A stretch of DNA of 64,000 bases. Source: Puniceicoccaceae bacterium 5H (GTDB taxonomy: Bacteria; Verrucomicrobiota; Verrucomicrobiia; Opitutales; Oceanipulchritudinaceae). The notes beneath the pieces are model-generated. The model was not told the origin of the DNA. It did not search any database and worked only from the letters and a program-made list of their open reading frames with translations. Numbering within the stretch: position 1 is the stretch's first letter; each line of letters starts with the position of its first letter. Made by a program: the position numbers and the translations under genes. Location: positions 62,001 to 126,000 of the forward strand of contig WOUP01000007.1 in NCBI GenBank assembly GCA_009772895.1, read 5' to 3'. This document shows, in pieces, positions 47,583-57,085 of this stretch.

Positions 47583-47900
47583 ATGAAAGCAACAATGAAC
47601 CAGCGCCGCAGCAGCCTACGCAGACACGGCGCTCCACAAGATGCTCAGGCGCATAATCTGGCAAAGGCTCAAGACAGGAACTTGCCGTTATTGGCGCGCC
47701 GCGCGCATCTGCTCAACTACATTGCATCTCTGAGGCCTGACGAGTCATTGCCCGCAGACCTGATGCAGGAGCTTGATTGCATCCTGAAGGAAGGCCATTC
47801 ATCTGTGCAAATCCGTGTTCTTTCCGTGGCCAAGCCAAAGTCTTTCTCCGGCCTCCAGTGCCTCAGTCGAAATAGGCACCGTTTTCGATGCTGGCGATGA
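47583..47900 (+). CDS. Hypothetical small basic protein (doubtful)
   Basis: A 105-aa frame from ATG 47583, seven bases after GGAG. The first 75 residues are Arg/Gln/Leu-rich and helical (NLPLLARRAHLLNYIASL, LPADLMQELDCIL). The end from about residue 78 translates an ATCCGTG-type repeat arm and runs antisense into the next gene, so the true C-terminus may be altered. No family is recognised. It may be a small gene disrupted by the repeat. Confidence 0.35.
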   Translation: MKATMNQRRSSLRRHGAPQDAQAHNLAKAQDRNLPLLARRAHLLNYIASLRPDESLPADLMQELDCILKEGHSSVQIRVLSVAKPKSFSGLQCLSRNRHRFRCWR

Positions 47901-48504
47901 CGGCGGTGGGCAGGCCGGATTCACTGAGGCCAGTGTGGTTGAGGTCGCCGTTGTGGTAAGCTTCGGCAAAGATCTCGGTGACGGCCTGTTGGCGGCGTTC
48001 CGCGTCGAAGATCGAGGAGGCCCAGTTGTAGGCCAGCTCGTATTGGCGGGAATCGAGCAGGTATTGGGCGACCAGGTGGATGCTGTCGTCGTAGAGTGCG
48101 CTGTTGGCGTGCTGGTTCAGCCAGGCGGTGGCGGCATCCGGATCCTCGATCACCCACTGCTTCAGGCGGCGGTTGAGGGCTTCCCGGTCGAGCTGGGCGA
48201 GCGGAGTCGCTTCGGCGGGCTCGGGCTCGCTGGAAGCGGTTGCCTCCGTCGGTGGGGCAATGGGGGCGGCTTGGGCGGCTTCGAGTTCGGCGACGCGCTG
48301 CTCGGCCTGGGCGAGTTCGGCGCGGGTGTCGGAAAGCTGCTGGTAGAGCGCCATCAGCTTGCGGCCCTGGTCGGGGAGGGACGGTTTCGGCTCGGGGGCG
48401 GCCACCGCAGGGGTAGGGGCGGGATTGGATAAAACCATCCAGCCCGCGAGACCGATGGCGACGAGCCAGCCTGAACCCTGTGCGCTTTTGCCCCAAAAAC
48501 TCAT
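47863..48504 (-). CDS. Hypothetical membrane-anchored protein, last gene of the SPFH-ATPase operon
   Basis: The 213-aa product has an N-terminal hydrophobic segment (WLVAIGLAGWMVLS), then a short coiled coil (SDTRAELAQAEQRVAELEAA) and a Pro/Ala/Glu linker. A helical C-terminal part with TPR-like text follows (ATAWLNQHANSALYDDSI, LVAQYLLDSRQYELAYNW). Its ATG overlaps the P-type ATPase stop (ATGA), so it belongs to that operon. It has no known family that I can name; a periplasmic accessory subunit is possible. Confidence 0.7.
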   Translation of the reverse strand: MSFWGKSAQGSGWLVAIGLAGWMVLSNPAPTPAVAAPEPKPSLPDQGRKLMALYQQLSDTRAELAQAEQRVAELEAAQAAPIAPPTEATASSEPEPAEATPLAQLDREALNRRLKQWVIEDPDAATAWLNQHANSALYDDSIHLVAQYLLDSRQYELAYNWASSIFDAERRQQAVTEIFAEAYHNGDLNHTGLSESGLPTAVIASIENGAYFD

Positions 48505-50447
48505 GACAGGGCAGGAGCGGGTGCCGTGCCAGCTGCCAGGTCCTGCTCGATTGTGACCTCTTCCTCCGCCAGTTCTTCGTCGAGGCCGTCGAAGCGCATC
48601 AGGCGTGCGCTGTTGAAGATCACGAAAAAGGCGCTGAATTCGTGGAAAAAGGCCGCGAGGATCGGGCTGACGAAGCCGGCGGTGGACAGCACGATGGCGA
48701 CCACGATCAGGCCGAAGCCGCAGAGCAGGTTCTGGTTGATGATGCCCACCGTGCGGTGCGAGAGCTCGAGCAGGTCGGCCAGCCGGCGCAGGTCGTTGGT
48801 CATGAGGGCTACGTCGGCGGTGTTCACGGCCACGTCATTGCCCAGCGCGCCCATCGCGACGCCCAGATCGCCCGCTGCGAGGGCCGGAGCGTCATTGAGG
48901 CCGTCCCCCACCACCAGCACCTTGCAGCCGGCGTCCTTCAGTTTGGCGATCTCGATCTGCTTGTCTTCGGGCAGGCATTCCGCGCGAAAATCGCTGATGC
49001 CGACGCGCTCGGCAATGGCCTCGGCGACCGGCGTGCGATCGCCCGTGAGCATGACGAAGCGGTCGATGCCGATGTAGCGCAGGCGTTCGAGGGCCTCCGC
49101 CGTCTCGGGGCGCAACTGGTCGGCCAGGCCGAAGGTGGCAACTTGGCGGCCGTCGACCGCGAGGTGGATCAGGCTCAGCGGCTGGTCGGTCGGCAGCCCC
49201 TCGATCGCGATGCCTTGCTCTTCCAGCCAGCTCTGGCGGCCGACCAGCACCGTACGGCCGTCCACCGTCGCGGTGACGCCGCGGCCCGAGGCTTCGCTGA
49301 GGTCGTGCACGTCGGGCAGGTGCAGCGCGCGGGCGGCCTCGCGGATGGCCTTGGCGACCGGGTGGTTGGAGTGTTGCTCGAGCGCGGAGGCGAGGGCGAG
49401 GGCCTCCTGTTCCGGCCAGCCCTGATGGGTGCGGATCTGCTCGATGCGCAGCACGCCCTGGGTCAGCGTGCCAGTCTTGTCAAAGACGACGGTGTCGATG
49501 TGGCGGCCCAGCTCGAGGTTGCGCGTGCTCTTGACCAACATGCCGAGGCGGGAGGCGCTGGAGATGGCGCCGACCATGGCGGACGGGCTGGCGAGCACGA
49601 ACGCGCAGGGGATCGAGACGATGAGCACGGCGATGGCGCGGTCCACATCGCGGGTAAAGAAGAAGACGCAGGCGGCGATGAGGATGATCAGCGGCGTGTA
49701 ATAGCGCGCGTAGTCTTCGGCCATGCGGATGATCGGGGCCTCGGATTCCTTGGCCTCCTCGATAATCTGTTGGACCTTGGCCACGACGGTGTCGCCGGCC
49801 TCCTTTTTCACGCGGGCCTCGAGCAACCCGGTGAGGTTGGTCGTGCCGGCAAAGATCTCGGCGCCCTCGGCGGCATCGACGGGCAGGGATTCGCCGGTGA
49901 TGTTGGCCTGATCGAGCTGCGAGTGGCCGCTGATGACGACGGAGTCGGTCGGCACGTAATCACCGGGGCGGATGCGGACGCGGTCGCCGATCTTGAGGTC
50001 CGCGGCGTCGACTTCCTCCTCGGTGCCGTCGGCGCGCAGGCGGCGGGCGCGGACTTCGGAGAGTTTGCGCAGGCGGGCCAGCGCGCTTTCGACGCCCAGC
50101 ACGGTGCGCTCTTCCAGCATCTGCCCGAGCACAAGGATGATGGCGACGATGCCGCCGGTCACGTATTTGCCGGTGGCGAGGGTGGCGGCGAGGGCGAGGA
50201 CCACATACTGGTCCATATAAAACTGGGTGGCGGCAAAGCCGGAGGTGCGGATCGAGCCCAACACGTCGATGAGGATGGGCGCGGCGATCACCACGGCGCC
50301 GATCAGGGCGAGCATGTGGGCCAGCGCGGCCTGATCGGGGCGCAGCCAGGGCAGGATGAGGCCGGTGAGCAGGAAGGCGCTGGAGATGAAGACCAGGCGC
50401 AGGCGACCCTGCATTTCTTCGGGGATGGAAAGGCTTTCCTGAGACAT
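48501..50447 (-). CDS. P1B-type (heavy metal) P-type ATPase with IPC metal motif
   Basis: A 648-aa membrane pump. It has TGES at 184-187, the phosphorylated Asp323 in FDKTGTLTQG, SNHPVAKAI for nucleotide binding, and VVGDGLNDAPAL. The intramembrane motif reads SIPCAFVLASP (Cys281), where most metal pumps have CPC or SPC. There is no N-terminal metal-binding domain. The transported ion cannot be told from this. I chose the ATG at 50447, 4 bp after the HflK-like stop. It sits in an operon with three SPFH proteins. Confidence 0.85.
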   Translation of the reverse strand: MSQESLSIPEEMQGRLRLVFISSAFLLTGLILPWLRPDQAALAHMLALIGAVVIAAPILIDVLGSIRTSGFAATQFYMDQYVVLALAATLATGKYVTGGIVAIILVLGQMLEERTVLGVESALARLRKLSEVRARRLRADGTEEEVDAADLKIGDRVRIRPGDYVPTDSVVISGHSQLDQANITGESLPVDAAEGAEIFAGTTNLTGLLEARVKKEAGDTVVAKVQQIIEEAKESEAPIIRMAEDYARYYTPLIILIAACVFFFTRDVDRAIAVLIVSIPCAFVLASPSAMVGAISSASRLGMLVKSTRNLELGRHIDTVVFDKTGTLTQGVLRIEQIRTHQGWPEQEALALASALEQHSNHPVAKAIREAARALHLPDVHDLSEASGRGVTATVDGRTVLVGRQSWLEEQGIAIEGLPTDQPLSLIHLAVDGRQVATFGLADQLRPETAEALERLRYIGIDRFVMLTGDRTPVAEAIAERVGISDFRAECLPEDKQIEIAKLKDAGCKVLVVGDGLNDAPALAAGDLGVAMGALGNDVAVNTADVALMTNDLRRLADLLELSHRTVGIINQNLLCGFGLIVVAIVLSTAGFVSPILAAFFHEFSAFFVIFNSARLMRFDGLDEELAEEEVTIEQDLAAGTAPAPALS

Positions 50448-50451
50448 GGTG

Positions 50452-51549
50452 CTAGCGCGTATATTTGGGCGAGGGCTCGATGAAGAGCGTCGGCTGGGCG
50501 TGCTCGGAGCCAAAGAGGGCGGACGACTGGGCCTGCTGCATCACGTAGTCGAGCGAGTCGAGGTAGAGGCGCGAGACGATGGCGTCCGGGTTGGTCTGAT
50601 ATTCGGCGTAAAAGGCCTTGAAGGCTTCGGCCTCGCCCTCGGATTTGGCGAGCAGGTCGTTGGCGTAGGCTTCGGCGCGGCGGCGGATGGCGGCGGCCTG
50701 GCCCCCGGCCTGCGTGAGGGAATTGGTGCGGTATTCGCGCGCGTTTTCGAGCAGCGTCTTGGCAAACATCTGGGCGTTGATCACGTCTTCGAAGGCCGCG
50801 AGCACCTGACGCGGCGGCCCCAGCTCCTGCAGTTCGCAGGCAGTCAGGGTGATGCCGAGCTGCAGGGCGTCGGCGCGGGCCTGGGCGTGTGCTTCGATCG
50901 CGCCGATCATGGCGTCGCGCTTCTCGGTCAGGCAGTCGTCGATGCGCATCTGGCCGATGGTGTGGCTGGCGCTCTGGTAGAGCAGGCTGCCGATCAGCTC
51001 GTCGCGGCGGTCGCCGAGGCGGAAGTAGGCCACCGGATCGTGGATGCGGTAGCGCAGGGTAAAGCGGGCCTGCAGGATGTTGCGGTCGCCCGTGAGCGTG
51101 TAGCCGTCGACGACCGGGTCCAGCGTGGTGGCGCCGTCGATCTGCACCTTTTTGGGCGGGGGCATGTTGCCGCCGTTCTCGTCCATCCAGGCCTGGACCT
51201 CCTCCATCGTGTATTGATATTCGCGGTCGGGATCGCCGATCTTCTTGCCGCCGGAGGCCCAGGATTCGAGCGTCAGACTGTGCTCGGTGCCGGTCTGGAC
51301 CAGTACCACTTCGTCGAAGGGCTCGGGCAGGCTGAAGACGAGGCCCGCGTCGTAGGTCTTGGGTTGGAGCTTGCCGAAGCGCAGGAGCAATCCCGTCTCG
51401 CTCGGGCCGACGGTGCGGATGCCGGAGACGAGGTAGAGGCCGAGCAGCAGCAGGAAGACCCAGAAGGCGGCGGGCTTGAGGTTTTTGAGCGTCAGGAGCA
51501 GGGCCTGGACCATCAGGCCGTCCTGGTTCTGGCGTTGCTTACGGCGCAT
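50452..51549 (-). CDS. SPFH-domain (HflK-like) membrane protein
   Basis: This 365-aa protein has an N-terminal helix (FWVFLLLLGLYLVSG), then the SPFH core (TVGPSETGLLLRFGKL, LTGDRNILQARFTLRYRI, DDCLTEKRDAM). A long Ala/Glu/Arg helix follows (RRRAEAYANDLLAKSEGEA). An insert of about 50 residues with PPPKKVQIDGATT is unusual for HflK. Such proteins form membrane cages that hold proteases or organise microdomains. It overlaps the preceding HflC-like gene by 11 bp. Confidence 0.85.
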   Translation of the reverse strand: MRRKQRQNQDGLMVQALLLTLKNLKPAAFWVFLLLLGLYLVSGIRTVGPSETGLLLRFGKLQPKTYDAGLVFSLPEPFDEVVLVQTGTEHSLTLESWASGGKKIGDPDREYQYTMEEVQAWMDENGGNMPPPKKVQIDGATTLDPVVDGYTLTGDRNILQARFTLRYRIHDPVAYFRLGDRRDELIGSLLYQSASHTIGQMRIDDCLTEKRDAMIGAIEAHAQARADALQLGITLTACELQELGPPRQVLAAFEDVINAQMFAKTLLENAREYRTNSLTQAGGQAAAIRRRAEAYANDLLAKSEGEAEAFKAFYAEYQTNPDAIVSRLYLDSLDYVMQQAQSSALFGSEHAQPTLFIEPSPKYTR

Positions 51550-52555
51550 CGGGCGTGTCCTCCGGGTCGAGGCCGATCGCGGCGGCGGTGGGGAAGTTCT
51601 TTTGGGTGCTCGGCACCTGCTGGGTGCGGATCATCTGGGCTTCCATCTCACCGCTGGGCTTGATGAGGCTGAACGGCGGGGTGCTGGTGTCGAGCAACAG
51701 CGTGGTGTTCTGGTCGACGACGGAGCGCAGGCTCTGGAGCTGGCGCATGAAGAGGTAAAACTCGAGGTCCTGGCTGTGGGCGGCGGCGTAGATGCGGGCG
51801 GCCTCGGCCTCGGCTTCGCCATGCTTCTCCTCGGCGTAGCGCTTGGCCTCGGCGATCAGGATCGAGGTTTCCTTGTCCGTTTCGGCGCGCAGGCGCTCGG
51901 CCTCGCTCTTGCCCTCGGCACGGTATTTGGAGGCCTCGCGCTTGCGTTCGGCCCGCATGCGGCGGAAGACCGACTCGGTGTTGTTTTCCGGCAGGTTGAG
52001 CTGGAGCACGCCGACGCTGCTCAGGCCGATGCCGAGGTACTCGTGGGCGTCGTCCGCGGCCTGGGCGAGGATCTGACCCTCGAGCGCGTCCATCGTTTCA
52101 TCGCTCTTTTCGACGGAGACGAGGTCGGCGTAATCGGTGCGACCCAACACGGAGTTGCGCGCGCTGGAAATGATGGAGTCAAGCTTTTCGTTGCCCGACT
52201 CGAGCGTGCCGACGCTGCGCAGAAACTTCAGCGGGTCTTCGACGCGCCAGGCGTAATACATCGGCACGATGATGTTGCGCTTGTCGCGGGTCAGCGTCTC
52301 GGAGAGGCGGATTTCGCCGTATTGCAGGCGCCCGTCGAGGCGCTCGACCTGCTCGACCGGCCACGGCCATTTGCCATACCAGCCCGCTTCGTTGACTTCC
52401 CGGACCGGTTTGCCGAAGCGCAGCACGACGGCGCGCTCGTTGTCGCGTAGCATGAAGCTGGCGGAGGTGAGGGTGACGACCACGGCGCCCAGGCCAAACA
52501 GGGCGAGGCGGGCGATCCATTGGCGGTTGGAGCCTTCGGTGCTTTCGGAACTCAT
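51539..52555 (-). CDS. SPFH-domain (HflC-like) membrane protein
   Basis: The 338-aa product has one helix (LALFGLGAVVVTLTSASFML), then a typical HflC head (RDNERAVVLRFGKPVREVNEAGWYGKWP, in two blocks), DKRNIIVPMYYAWRVEDPLKF and the HflC-like tail FRRMRAERKREASKYRAEG. It likely pairs with the HflK-like product in a hetero-oligomeric ring at the inner membrane. Its ATG overlaps the upstream gene's stop by four bases. Confidence 0.87.
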   Translation of the reverse strand: MSSESTEGSNRQWIARLALFGLGAVVVTLTSASFMLRDNERAVVLRFGKPVREVNEAGWYGKWPWPVEQVERLDGRLQYGEIRLSETLTRDKRNIIVPMYYAWRVEDPLKFLRSVGTLESGNEKLDSIISSARNSVLGRTDYADLVSVEKSDETMDALEGQILAQAADDAHEYLGIGLSSVGVLQLNLPENNTESVFRRMRAERKREASKYRAEGKSEAERLRAETDKETSILIAEAKRYAEEKHGEAEAEAARIYAAAHSQDLEFYLFMRQLQSLRSVVDQNTTLLLDTSTPPFSLIKPSGEMEAQMIRTQQVPSTQKNFPTAAAIGLDPEDTPDAP

Positions 52556-54534
52556 TGTGCGTCCTCCAGGAGGTAGTCAGCGTCGGATGGGTTGGGATTG
52601 ACGGCCGGGATGGCGCCGGAACCGGCGCGCAGGTAGCCGTCGACCGCGCGGTCAAAGTCGGTGGGTTTGGCGTCGAGCGCCGGGATCAAGGTCTGGACGT
52701 CCGGCACGCTCTCGTTGAGCAAGTCGGGGTTCAGCGTCTTGCGCACGTCGATGTAGGCCGGGATGGCGCCCTGGAAGCTCTCGTCGACGATCAGCTTCTT
52801 CACGCCGGCGAGGCTGGCGTCGAAGGCCTCATAGGCCTTGCGCACGCGGAAGACCTCGGGGGCCTCATTGTAGCTGGCATCGAGCGCGGTAAAGCTGTGG
52901 GCCTGGCCACTGGCGGCTTCGATGCGCGACTGGTATTTGCCGTCGGAGGCGGCCATCAGGGCGTATTGGCGGGCCTCGGCGCGCGGCAGGTTCTGGCTGC
53001 GGTAGGCCTGGCCTTCGTAGATAAAGGCTTCGCGGTCTTCCTCGGCACTCACGACCTCCTGATAGCTGGGACCGACGTTGACCGGCGGGTGGATGTCGCG
53101 CAGGCAGACGAGGTCGATCTCGATGCCCGATTCCTTGCGGTCGAGGTCGGCCTGGATGGCCTCGTGCAGCGCCTGTTGCAGGTCGGAGCGCTCGGTCGTC
53201 ATGATGTCGAAGGCCGACTCGTGCAGCGTCTGGTGCAACAGGGCTCGGTAACCCGCCTGGGTGATCGTCAGCTGAGGATCGGTGGTGTGGAGAAAGAGGC
53301 GGCGCGGGTCCTTGATGTGGTAGTAGATCGGCACGCTGATAGTCAGCAGCTCTTCGCCCACGCCCACCAGCTGGTTGACCTCGCCGACGTAGTGGGCGCG
53401 GTCCCAGAGGATGGGATCGCCGGTGTCGGCTTCGAGGCCCAGCACGACCATGCGCAGCTCGTCCGAGGGAATGGTCTTCACGCGACCGAAGGGGTAGGGG
53501 AGGGTCACGTGCAGGCCCGGCTGCAGCAGTTGCTCCTGCGTGCGACCGAGGTGCTGGTGCAGGCCCTGGCTACCGAGCGGCACGGCGTGGAAGGCGGTGG
53601 ACACCCAGGTCATCACCGCCACGGCGACGGCCAGGGCCGGAAGCGCGCGCAGGATGCTGGGCAGGAACCACATCTCCGAGAGCTTGAAGAGCGCCTCGGC
53701 GTCGCCGACCTCGACCCGTTGCCAGAGCGGGTGGCGCCGCGGTGTGATGAGGCGCAGGGGCTGCGTGGTGCCGAGCGGCGGGGCCTGACGCCAGACGCGC
53801 ACGGGTTGGTAAAAGCGCAGGGCCCAGCGCAACAGCGTTTCGACGATCCAGAAGCCGAGCAGCACGGTGCAGATCAGCAGCACCCAGGGGTGGAAGACGA
53901 GCTGGGCGTAGAGCTCGACCAGCAGCACAACGGCGAGCAGACCGAAGAGGCAGGCTGCGAGCTGGTGCACCCCGCCGATCACGTCGAGGCGCAGCTGCGA
54001 GACGCGGTCACCGTCCTTTTGCGAGATCTGGGCGTAGAGGCGGCCAAAGTAGCCGAGGAAGGCGGTCACGAGCAGCACGATGGCCGGAAACGTCATCTGG
54101 TCGGGCGTCTCGGCCGGGTGCAGCATGGGGCTGAACTGGAGCAGAAAGGGCGCGAGCAAGGCGGCCGCGGCCAGGGCGCCGAGGGCGAGCAAACACTGGC
54201 GCAGGCCGCGCAGGGTGCAGGGGACGAAGCGCCGCGTGCGGAACCACAGGTGGCGCCAGAACTTGCCGCGGGGAGCGGTGCGGGGCAGGCTGGCGGGCGG
54301 CAGGACCAGGTTGAGCTGCAGGGCGAGCACCCAGGCGGCGAGCGCGGCTACGGGGTAGGCGAAGGGCAGCTGCTGGAAGTAGGCGAGGGCGGCGAATCCG
54401 ACCGCTTCCAATGCGCTCAGACTGGTCAGGATCCAGCACCAGGCGGGCGTTTTGCGTGGGGCGGCAGTGGCAGTTGAAGGCATGGGAAGACGTCGGGAAA
54501 GGTGTGAGAGAAACGCAGTCGGGAGACGCAGCAT
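52552..54534 (-). CDS. Polytopic SPFH/HflK-like protein, first gene of the operon
   Basis: This 660-aa protein has about seven hydrophobic helices in the first 310 residues. An HflK-like SPFH domain follows: FHAVPLGSQGLHQHLGRT, PGLHVTLPYPFGRVKTIPSDE, LLTISVPIYYHIKDPRR, then ALHEAIQADLDRKESGIEID and a helical tail. The multi-helix N-terminus is not found in classic HflK. The start could be 54534 or the ATG at 54483; neither has a clear ribosome-binding site. It leads a coupled run: SPFH, HflC-like, HflK-like, P-type ATPase, anchored protein. Confidence 0.82.
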   Translation of the reverse strand: MLRLPTAFLSHLSRRLPMPSTATAAPRKTPAWCWILTSLSALEAVGFAALAYFQQLPFAYPVAALAAWVLALQLNLVLPPASLPRTAPRGKFWRHLWFRTRRFVPCTLRGLRQCLLALGALAAAALLAPFLLQFSPMLHPAETPDQMTFPAIVLLVTAFLGYFGRLYAQISQKDGDRVSQLRLDVIGGVHQLAACLFGLLAVVLLVELYAQLVFHPWVLLICTVLLGFWIVETLLRWALRFYQPVRVWRQAPPLGTTQPLRLITPRRHPLWQRVEVGDAEALFKLSEMWFLPSILRALPALAVAVAVMTWVSTAFHAVPLGSQGLHQHLGRTQEQLLQPGLHVTLPYPFGRVKTIPSDELRMVVLGLEADTGDPILWDRAHYVGEVNQLVGVGEELLTISVPIYYHIKDPRRLFLHTTDPQLTITQAGYRALLHQTLHESAFDIMTTERSDLQQALHEAIQADLDRKESGIEIDLVCLRDIHPPVNVGPSYQEVVSAEEDREAFIYEGQAYRSQNLPRAEARQYALMAASDGKYQSRIEAASGQAHSFTALDASYNEAPEVFRVRKAYEAFDASLAGVKKLIVDESFQGAIPAYIDVRKTLNPDLLNESVPDVQTLIPALDAKPTDFDRAVDGYLRAGSGAIPAVNPNPSDADYLLEDAQ

Positions 54535-56263: not shown

Positions 56264-57085
56264 TTAGGCGCGGCGGCGGCGAAAGGCGGCCACGGCGAGG
56301 GCGAGCACGCCGGCGAGGGCGGCGTAGGTGCGCGGTTCCGGCACGGCAATGGCGTTGATGCCCTGGCCGAAATCGCCGACCAGCGTCGCGGAGCCGTCCA
56401 TCAGGTCGATGGAGTAGAGGCCGGAGGTCAGGCCGTCCACGGAGAGGCTGGCCAGCAGGTTGCCGTTGCCGTCGACCATCAGTGAGGAGTAGCCCGTGAT
56501 GTCGAGGCCGAGGCTGCCGATCGTGAAGAGCTCGCCGCCGTCCGGATCGAAGGACTGGGCCAGGATGTCGAGCTCGGGGTCGATCACGAACAGTTCCCCG
56601 AAGTCCGGGTCGATGCCGATGCCGCTGAGGTAGGGCGCCGCGCCTTCGTTGGCGTCGCCGCTGCCGTAGAAAAAGTCGGTGGCGTAGCTGGTGCTGCCGT
56701 CGGTCTCCAGGGCCACGTTTTCAGCCATGTCGCTGACCCAGCGGAAGTTCGAGTAGAACGGGTCGTAGGCCATGTCGGCATCGTAGCCGCTGGGCAGGAA
56801 GGTATCGCTCAACAGGGTCGCCTGGCCCTTGGTGTTGAAGCGGTAGATATAGGCGTTGTTGTCGACGCCGTAGAAGTAGCCGTCGTTGGGATTGTAGTCG
56901 AAATCGACGATCGAGGAAAAGGCGTCGTTGAGGCCGGTGATTGCGGTCGAGCTGTAGACCGTGCCGGGGTTCGTGGACTCGAACTTGACCAGTTCGTTGG
57001 CGTCGTTGACACCCCAGAGGGCGTAGGCGTGAGCGGCCGAGGCGGCGAGCCCCAGAAGAGCAAGCGAAGCAAGGGTCTTTTTCAT
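56264..57085 (-). CDS. Secreted DUF4394-like protein with PEP-CTERM sorting signal
   Basis: This 273-aa protein has a signal peptide ending AASAAHA, then beta-propeller-like repeats typical of DUF4394 (ALWGVNDANELVKF, FDYNPNDGYFYGVDNNAYIYRF, GIGIDPDFGELFVID). The C-terminus is a PEP-CTERM signal: VPEPRTYAAL, a hydrophobic helix, then FRRRRA. PEP-CTERM proteins are processed by an exosortase and linked to surface polysaccharide; the exosortase is not in this window. It is the first gene of a pair with the PhoX-like gene. Confidence 0.85.
   Translation of the reverse strand: MKKTLASLALLGLAASAAHAYALWGVNDANELVKFESTNPGTVYSSTAITGLNDAFSSIVDFDYNPNDGYFYGVDNNAYIYRFNTKGQATLLSDTFLPSGYDADMAYDPFYSNFRWVSDMAENVALETDGSTSYATDFFYGSGDANEGAAPYLSGIGIDPDFGELFVIDPELDILAQSFDPDGGELFTIGSLGLDITGYSSLMVDGNGNLLASLSVDGLTSGLYSIDLMDGSATLVGDFGQGINAIAVPEPRTYAALAGVLALAVAAFRRRRA

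Follow-up and report, generated by a model that had tools for sequence, protein, structure and literature searches.

HflK and HflC are known partners of FtsH, and the role of bacterial SPFH proteins is largely open. Stomatin, described as a "membrane encapsulin," encloses AQP1 and UT-B (PMC12407830). In Pseudomonas aeruginosa, the genes PA2434–PA2439 are annotated as HflK family, HflC, HflC family, HmtA, and hypothetical (PMC4542158). Papers are cited here by PubMed Central (PMC) accession. We describe an operon of five minus-strand genes (positions 47863–54534) in a 64,000-nucleotide stretch of Puniceicoccaceae bacterium 5H (contig WOUP01000007.1, positions 62,001–126,000; below, the window), in which three SPFH genes are followed by the gene of a P1B-type ATPase. 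With confidence slightly above even, we read it as a self-contained metal-pump module, that is, a P1B ATPase with a dedicated hetero-oligomeric SPFH scaffold, possibly a cage. The near one-to-one linkage across phyla would then name a client of bacterial SPFH proteins, a metal pump.

All five open reading frames (ORFs) are present; coordinates of features refer to the minus strand throughout. The first gene encodes a polytopic SPFH protein (P0005, 660 amino acids (aa), 52552..54534; Band_7, 35.7 bits; seven hydrophobic segments). It is followed by genes of an HflC-like SPFH protein (P0004, 338 aa, 51539..52555; HflC chains in PDB, E 4e-35), an HflK-like SPFH protein (P0003, 365 aa, 50452..51549; HflK chains in PDB, E 4e-21), the P1B-type ATPase (648 aa, 48501..50447), and an anchored helical protein (P0001, 213 aa, 47863..48504). 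The ATPase start is the ATG at 50447; the protein used in searches, P0002, has one additional N-terminal residue. The junctions along the operon are a 4-bp ATGA overlap, an 11-bp overlap, a 4-bp gap, and a 4-bp overlap. These genes and junctions had been listed in a first-pass annotation of the stretch and agree with the ORFs and checked coordinates. Its protein identities (three SPFH proteins, a metal-type P-ATPase, and an anchored protein) are borne out as well, as Pfam finds the Band_7/SPFH domain in three proteins and the ATPase exceeds the NCBIfam TIGR01525 cut-off (533.3 vs 346.25 bits), passing also TIGR01512 (458 bits) and TIGR01511. P0004 lies above the hflC equivalog cut-off (TIGR01932, 162.7 vs 134.4 bits), its orthologue in locus L104 being under it (96.5 bits). 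The hflK cut-off (TIGR01933, 159.4) is reached neither by P0003, just under it at 149.4, nor by P0005 (115.7), which by these scores is a more distant HflK relative.

The gene order SPFH(7TM)–HflC–HflK–ATPase (7TM, seven transmembrane segments) is a conserved cassette across phyla. A scan of genome contigs yielded 23 ATPase loci. At all 11 loci with at least 59% identity, SPFH genes of the trio precede the ATPase gene (three are cut by contig edges, one of these being also frameshifted), and SPFH genes likewise precede it at a Lentisphaera locus with 40% identity. The remaining 11 scan loci, where no SPFH gene was seen, are five Phycisphaerae-type ones, of which some lie at contig edges, and six remote P1B loci (L021–L026; 0/6, with flanks short in some and only 4.9 kb in L023). 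In the phylum sample, 163 of 387 genomes have an ATPase match at E 1e-100 or better, and 146 of the 150 ATPases among the matches listed adjoin an SPFH gene. For 120 of these 150, an HflC-like match lies within 8 kb among the 150 HflC matches listed; as only these 150 HflC matches were listed, 27 loci were read directly, and 26 of the remaining 30 ATPases (3 + 23) adjoin an SPFH gene on reading the DNA. Matches at 1e-105 were obtained in 10 of 398 Pseudomonadota genomes, with the trio at all 10 loci (the HflC gene is split in one). Of the 25 genomes in the Pseudomonas genus sample, 13 carry the ATPase (1e-200), and the five loci read there all contain the trio. The four-gene cassette is also present at two plasmid loci read, one of them on a conjugative Klebsiella aerogenes plasmid, hence the cassette can travel.

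The first-pass annotation had proposed from this genome that the SPFH set is coupled to the pump, calling for a gene-neighbourhood survey and naming restriction to this genome as what would speak against it. The linkage recurs in Verrucomicrobiota, Lentisphaera, and Pseudomonadota; a one-genome coincidence is thus rejected, the coupling is strongly supported, and it is more general than had been supposed. It does not extend to P1B ATPases at large. The source genome (4.1 Mb, 40 contigs) has five P1B matches, one below the family cut-off, and only the operon ATPase is near an SPFH gene; linkage of SPFH genes to any P1B ATPase was rejected, given 0/4 own paralogues and 0/6 remote loci. Set against the 0/4, the 146 of 150 in the survey exceeds chance.

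Variant order, with the ATPase gene ahead of the SPFH trio, is seen in L094, L118, L119, and L187. In L030:3140-8866 (Klebsiella aerogenes pYD-K10_1), genes for a Tn3 transposase and an aminoglycoside phosphotransferase lie some kilobases away from the cassette.

In the 69-row ATPase tree, 52 SPFH-linked ATPases and four Phycisphaerae ATPases form one clade of 56 (SH-aLRT 100), to which the window ATPase belongs; E. coli ZntA and CopA and the four paralogues from the window genome fall outside. The tree was built by a quick method, with long branches flagged for some outgroup rows; it was drawn from 66 loci plus added rows, leaving out L007, L018, L027, L112, and L115 (near-copies or short), L161–L187, and ATPases of at most 550 aa (L014, L020). 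L031 (Aquibium plasmid) also has an SPFH trio with a P1B gene close by, whose product groups with ZntA. Path distances of the four cassette proteins are correlated (rho 0.70–0.86; 45 loci, FastTree trees; without L007, L010, L014, L027, L031, L110, and loci lacking any of the four proteins at 150 bits). Such correlations are inflated by shared species history, hence genomes with two cassettes are a better test: in five genomes with two complete cassettes, the same-genome partner is never among the three nearest rows (ten cassettes, four trees). The four cassette genes are inherited as a unit. Phycisphaerae-type ATPases in L013, L016–L018, L020, L112, L113, and L115 showed no SPFH gene nearby; those included in the tree belong to the clade, and some of these loci are at contig edges.

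Locus L145, from a P. aeruginosa-like genome (G798), encodes a 7TM SPFH protein of 667 aa, an HflC-like protein of 344 aa, an HflK-like protein, a 162-aa ORF, an ATPase of 662 aa, and a 181-aa ORF, the two small ORFs being picked by eye among overlapping frames. LpxC of G798 is 99% identical to a PDB LpxC chain, presumably that of P. aeruginosa; the values for the other 24 genus genomes are 90–96%. The L145 ATPase is 37.6% identical to the window ATPase (591 aligned columns), falls inside the SPFH-linked clade, and is preceded by SPFH, HflC, and HflK genes in this order. Since the gene set agrees with the annotations of PA2434–PA2439 tabled in PMC4542158, we infer that this ATPase is HmtA. PaFlo5-6-7 are probably PA2437–PA2439, as theirs is the sole operon of three SPFH genes described in PMC13086221. 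Judged by gene set, gene order (including the downstream small protein), and ATPase clade, the window operon is a verrucomicrobial form of the zinc-responsive hmtA locus PA2434–PA2439. It differs in the sequence of the ATPase, which has IPC for CPC and no His-rich N-terminus, in lacking the additional ORF between the HflK-like and ATPase genes, and in P0001, not detected by profile in L145.

HmtA, reportedly the subject of a study by Lewinson in 2009, is said to import Zn and Cu. It is also reported as an importer in PMC8456098 and PMC10393844, and is up under calprotectin (PMC8557868). In a zinc-starved znuA mutant, genes of PA2434–PA2439 are up 5.6 to 14.4-fold (PA2436 is not tabled), with a weak Zur box (PMC4542158); the proteins are up on zinc depletion, not all significantly (PMC11761036); and the PA2439 promoter is shifted by Zur (PMC8531726). 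By likeness to HmtA, the window pump probably imports Zn or Cu as well. P. aeruginosa thus supplies an inducing condition, zinc starvation, that makes the SPFH role directly testable. In a 2026 study of all nine P. aeruginosa SPFH proteins, the phenotypes of the three-SPFH operon are no more than subtle, with slightly less biofilm and weaker virulence in an insect model (PMC13086221). The term "ATPase" was found neither in the main text of that paper nor in PMC2636767, and no proposal that the SPFH trio serves the pump was found in searches of open-licence PMC papers. As a kind, then, the operon is already known from P. aeruginosa; as an SPFH-scaffold-for-pump system with the subunit described below, no description was found in these searches.

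The window ATPase contains DKTGT (phosphorylation motif, 49467..49481), TGE, HP, and GDGxND, kept in 78, 77, 79, and 79 of 79 family ATPases, respectively; the 79 are the 52 tree rows and L161–L187, including L162, L180, L185, and L186, without an adjoining SPFH gene. These motifs and the three NCBIfam families are shared with ZntA/CopA-type P1B ATPases, from which the window ATPase differs by its clade and by the motif of the sixth transmembrane segment (TM6). At TM6 the second cysteine is retained and the first lost (I-P-C replacing C-P-C, 49605..49613, by the family alignment), so that the motif still holds a cysteine. No N-terminal metal-binding domain was found by Pfam. The TM6 motifs of the 79 ATPases are CPC (55), IPC (11, the window ATPase and close relatives), VPA (4), LPC (3), CPV (3), CPI (2), and MPC (1). 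An N-terminus rich in His (at least five among residues 1–45) is found in 31 of the 55 CPC ATPases and in none of the remaining 24, a feature strongly clustered by descent and dependent on uncurated ORF starts. The VPA ATPases (L092, L116, L165, L179) have a TM6 motif without any cysteine. In three of their loci (L092, L116, and L165), SPFH1 of the polytopic subunit contains a His-rich insert of 6–8 His, L179 being outside the alignment of this subunit; CPC locus L121 likewise has such an insert (4 His). These His-rich segments and motif changes suggest that the family handles metal and that the ion or the mechanism has changed in the window's branch.

The pump might instead be an exporter serving detoxification that the scaffold only positions, with the importer reading of HmtA not transferable to the window's branch. 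We regard this as unlikely, though well worth keeping in view: the window ATPase shares a clade with the HmtA-type ATPase and what induces the locus of the latter is a lack of zinc and not a surplus (PMC4542158, PMC11761036), while most P1B ATPases export (PMC8456098), the window's branch has IPC at TM6 without a His-rich N-terminus, and its conserved neighbour gene is PhoX-like and not one for zinc uptake.

The family of the polytopic subunit P0005 was traced as far as Pseudomonas. Among its 44 members, the number of hydrophobic segments before residue 450 is seven in 35, six in 7, five in 1, and three in 1. Predicted-inside loops are richer in Lys and Arg in 34 of the 35 seven-segment members (26 inside and 0 outside in P0005), which places the SPFH part outside; six helices leading back to the cytoplasm and one further crossing would put an HflK-type SPFH domain in the periplasm. 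In the AlphaFold2 (AF2) model (42 sequences, pLDDT 77.8, pTM 0.55), membrane helices are followed by SPFH and a coiled coil. The top Foldseek match is HflK/C of the nautilus-like HflK/C–FtsH assembly 9cz2, and 7wi3 is also matched. The SPFH1/SPFH2 region comprises residues 315–482 (53089..53592; Foldseek 9cz2, E 4e-15; phmmer HflK chains, 1.4e-14), and the coiled-coil helices, residues 485–576 (52807..53082; AF2 helices 485–557 and 559–576; aligned with HflK up to residue 586).

The six-helix membrane domain of P0005 (residues about 29–243, 53806..54450) likely has a fold similar to that of cation diffusion facilitators (CDFs). VIA-align, applied to Foldseek's first 1000 chains with the predicted full-length model, aligns residues 29–243 to YiiP (8f6h_B) with Z 17.0 and root-mean-square deviation 3.1 over 188 residues, to ZnT3 with Z 16.5, and to ZnT1 with Z 16.0, where helical bundles may reach Z about 13–14 through arrangement alone. 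In its best 50 rows, all 16 confined to residues 1–251 are CDFs (YiiP, ZnT1, ZnT3, ZnT7, SLC30A10). A profile comparison with 16 CDF sequences that passed a length and motif filter (two from E. coli, the others from 14 of the 24 loci retrieved) gives weak support (Prob 63%, E 6.8e-5 for one comparison, 186 columns); the comparison with the ATPase profile yields 11% (75 columns), and that of CDF with ATPase 0.6% (27 columns). Pfam Cation_efflux is not matched by P0005, which has Band_7 alone at E 10, and, for the other 43 family members, is not among the 25 of 47 Pfam families listed. From the model, P0005 looks like an HflK-type cage subunit to which a CDF (YiiP/ZnT) membrane domain is fused; if right, this is a domain combination not found in print in searches of open-licence PMC papers.

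The cross-phylum recurrence of the pairing suggests that the scaffold serves the pump. In the proposed mechanism, the HflC-like, HflK-like, and 7TM-SPFH subunits would assemble into a dome on the periplasmic side of the inner membrane, modelled on HflK/C round FtsH and stomatin over aquaporin-1. The 7TM subunit would put its CDF-fold membrane domain into the ring and contact or corral the ATPase; the dome would hold, stabilise, or gate the pump and its periplasmic metal supply; and the pump would import a scarce transition metal (Zn or Cu). A bolder version, to which we give somewhat less than an even chance, is a bacterial membrane encapsulin, in which three SPFH proteins, one of them a CDF–SPFH fusion, form a periplasmic dome that encloses the P1B ATPase and controls access of metal. 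Such a system would occur in several phyla and on plasmids, and would have diversified to ions other than Zn and Cu (IPC, LPC, MPC, CPV, CPI, VPA). The working principle, an SPFH dome round a transport protein, would be that of the stomatin domes over AQP1 and UT-B, which differ in being eukaryotic, in having one kind of subunit, and in enclosing a passive channel or transporter; according to that paper, SPFH proteins all have a single membrane segment, vs about seven in P0005 (PMC12407830). If true, bacteria would have an equivalent of the stomatin dome over aquaporin, and P-type pumps would be subject to a new form of control.

Several observations weigh against these proposals. Four of the 150 listed ATPases have no adjoining SPFH gene (three with an HflC-like match on another contig and one at a contig edge), and none was seen in Phycisphaerae relatives with 40–47% ATPase identity; the cassette is patchy, only one other sampled genome being matched in the window's own order. 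The window ATPase combines IPC with the lack of a His-rich N-terminus, which makes the ion of its subclade less sure. In P. aeruginosa, one study found hmtA mRNA constantly low and not zinc-repressed (PMC8531726); a review makes hmtA an exception to Zur binding, which conflicts with that study, and calls for confirmation of the import direction (PMC10393844). No CDF is among Foldseek's best 50 matches for P0005, and no Asp, His, or Cys column in residues 29–243 is conserved at 70% or more, only E232 being so conserved. Having no conserved Asp/His column, the CDF-like domain is probably not itself a transporter, and a CDF transport function is unlikely; P0005 thus resembles CDF zinc transporters (YiiP, ZnT) in the modelled fold, and differs in this respect, in the lack of a Pfam match, and in the fusion to a further transmembrane segment and SPFH.

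In the SPFH trio itself, P0004 exceeds the hflC threshold, HflK chains are matched by both P0003 and P0005, and the SPFH and coiled-coil fold is that of the HflK/HflC–FtsH complex. The trio differs from that complex in having three SPFH subunits instead of two, one of them bearing about six additional membrane helices, and in being linked to a P1B ATPase instead of hfq/hflX (as in E. coli) or ftsH. We know of no counterpart of the 7TM CDF-like subunit in E. coli HflKC, which counts against service to FtsH. From the missing FtsH gene, the first-pass annotation had argued that the set may serve the pump and not a protease. There is indeed none within the operon, but this argument is weak: the genome's single Peptidase_M41 match lies on another contig (G000:C2:136118-136684), and a search of the genome found no second HflK/HflC pair. 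The genome has four Band_7 matches, the trio and one at 28.7 bits, far below the hflC cut-off of 134.4 and prohibitin-like by eye. With FtsH encoded elsewhere, its absence from the operon proves little, and the trio may serve FtsH as well; a better argument against FtsH is that in P. aeruginosa canonical hflKC is separate from the three-SPFH operon (PMC13086221).

The trio could be the genome's own HflK/HflC, modulating the single FtsH, with the ATPase as a co-regulated neighbour; the hflC score of P0004, the lack of another pair, and FtsH on another contig all agree with this. As the trio keeps to one ATPase clade across phyla, and as P. aeruginosa has its canonical hflKC besides, we consider this improbable; as the best reading it was set aside on the linkage evidence, and it is retained as a rival. 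Regulated proteolysis is, in our estimate, of similarly low probability: here the trio would recruit FtsH to remove the pump when metal is plentiful, and the linkage would reflect turnover and no resident cage. This fits the known partnership of HflKC with FtsH, the matched structures 7wi3 and 9cz2, and the amount of pump, which follows zinc in P. aeruginosa (PMC4542158, PMC11761036), and is opposed by the lack of ftsH linkage in the window genome, the one genome checked. It is equally doubtful that the SPFH proteins organise a general lipid microdomain with the pump as one of many clients and without specific contact, which is the general model for bacterial SPFH proteins (literature abstracts), since the linkage is almost one-to-one and the genes are co-inherited, which speaks for a dedicated client. 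The dedicated scaffold for the pump is thus the reading we retain.

The fifth protein of the operon, P0001, has no family match above cut-off. Its AF2 model shows a confident helical C-terminal domain (about residues 107–207) and, at low confidence, an anchor helix (11–26) and a long helix (43–78); there is no significant fold match (best E 0.17), some of the insignificant ones being TPR-like. Homologues stand directly after the ATPase gene in 13 loci (L005–L012, L014, L019, L027, L082, L084), making P0001 a cassette member in Verrucomicrobiae. Upstream of the operon, and with uncertain membership in it, are genes of the PhoX-like protein P0006 (54592..56211; PF05787, 44.4 bits, partial), with a homologue upstream of the cassette at 10 loci of the window's branch, and of a DUF4394/PEP-CTERM-like protein (56264..57085), with 40–48% identical homologues in the same place at seven loci of that branch, the L011 member matching DUF4394.

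For each repeated family of cassette neighbours, one or two members were scanned, and zinc-uptake genes were not seen as constant neighbours among the scanned families (PhoX-like, DUF4394, Rieske, ABC-2 transporter). The window genome has four Fur-family matches. A protein family whose L011 member (L011:11604-12356) carries a Rieske [2Fe-2S] domain adjoins the cassette end in nine loci. In the other branch of the Verrucomicrobiota phylum, genes of one family are found near the cassette in L088, L090, L091, L094, L095, L097, L099, L101, and L114, the L090 member matching an ABC-2 permease (weakly GldF). It is accompanied by a gene for an ABC ATPase (GldA/DrrA-like in L090 and L097), and eight of the nine loci encode another conserved protein, about 540 aa long.

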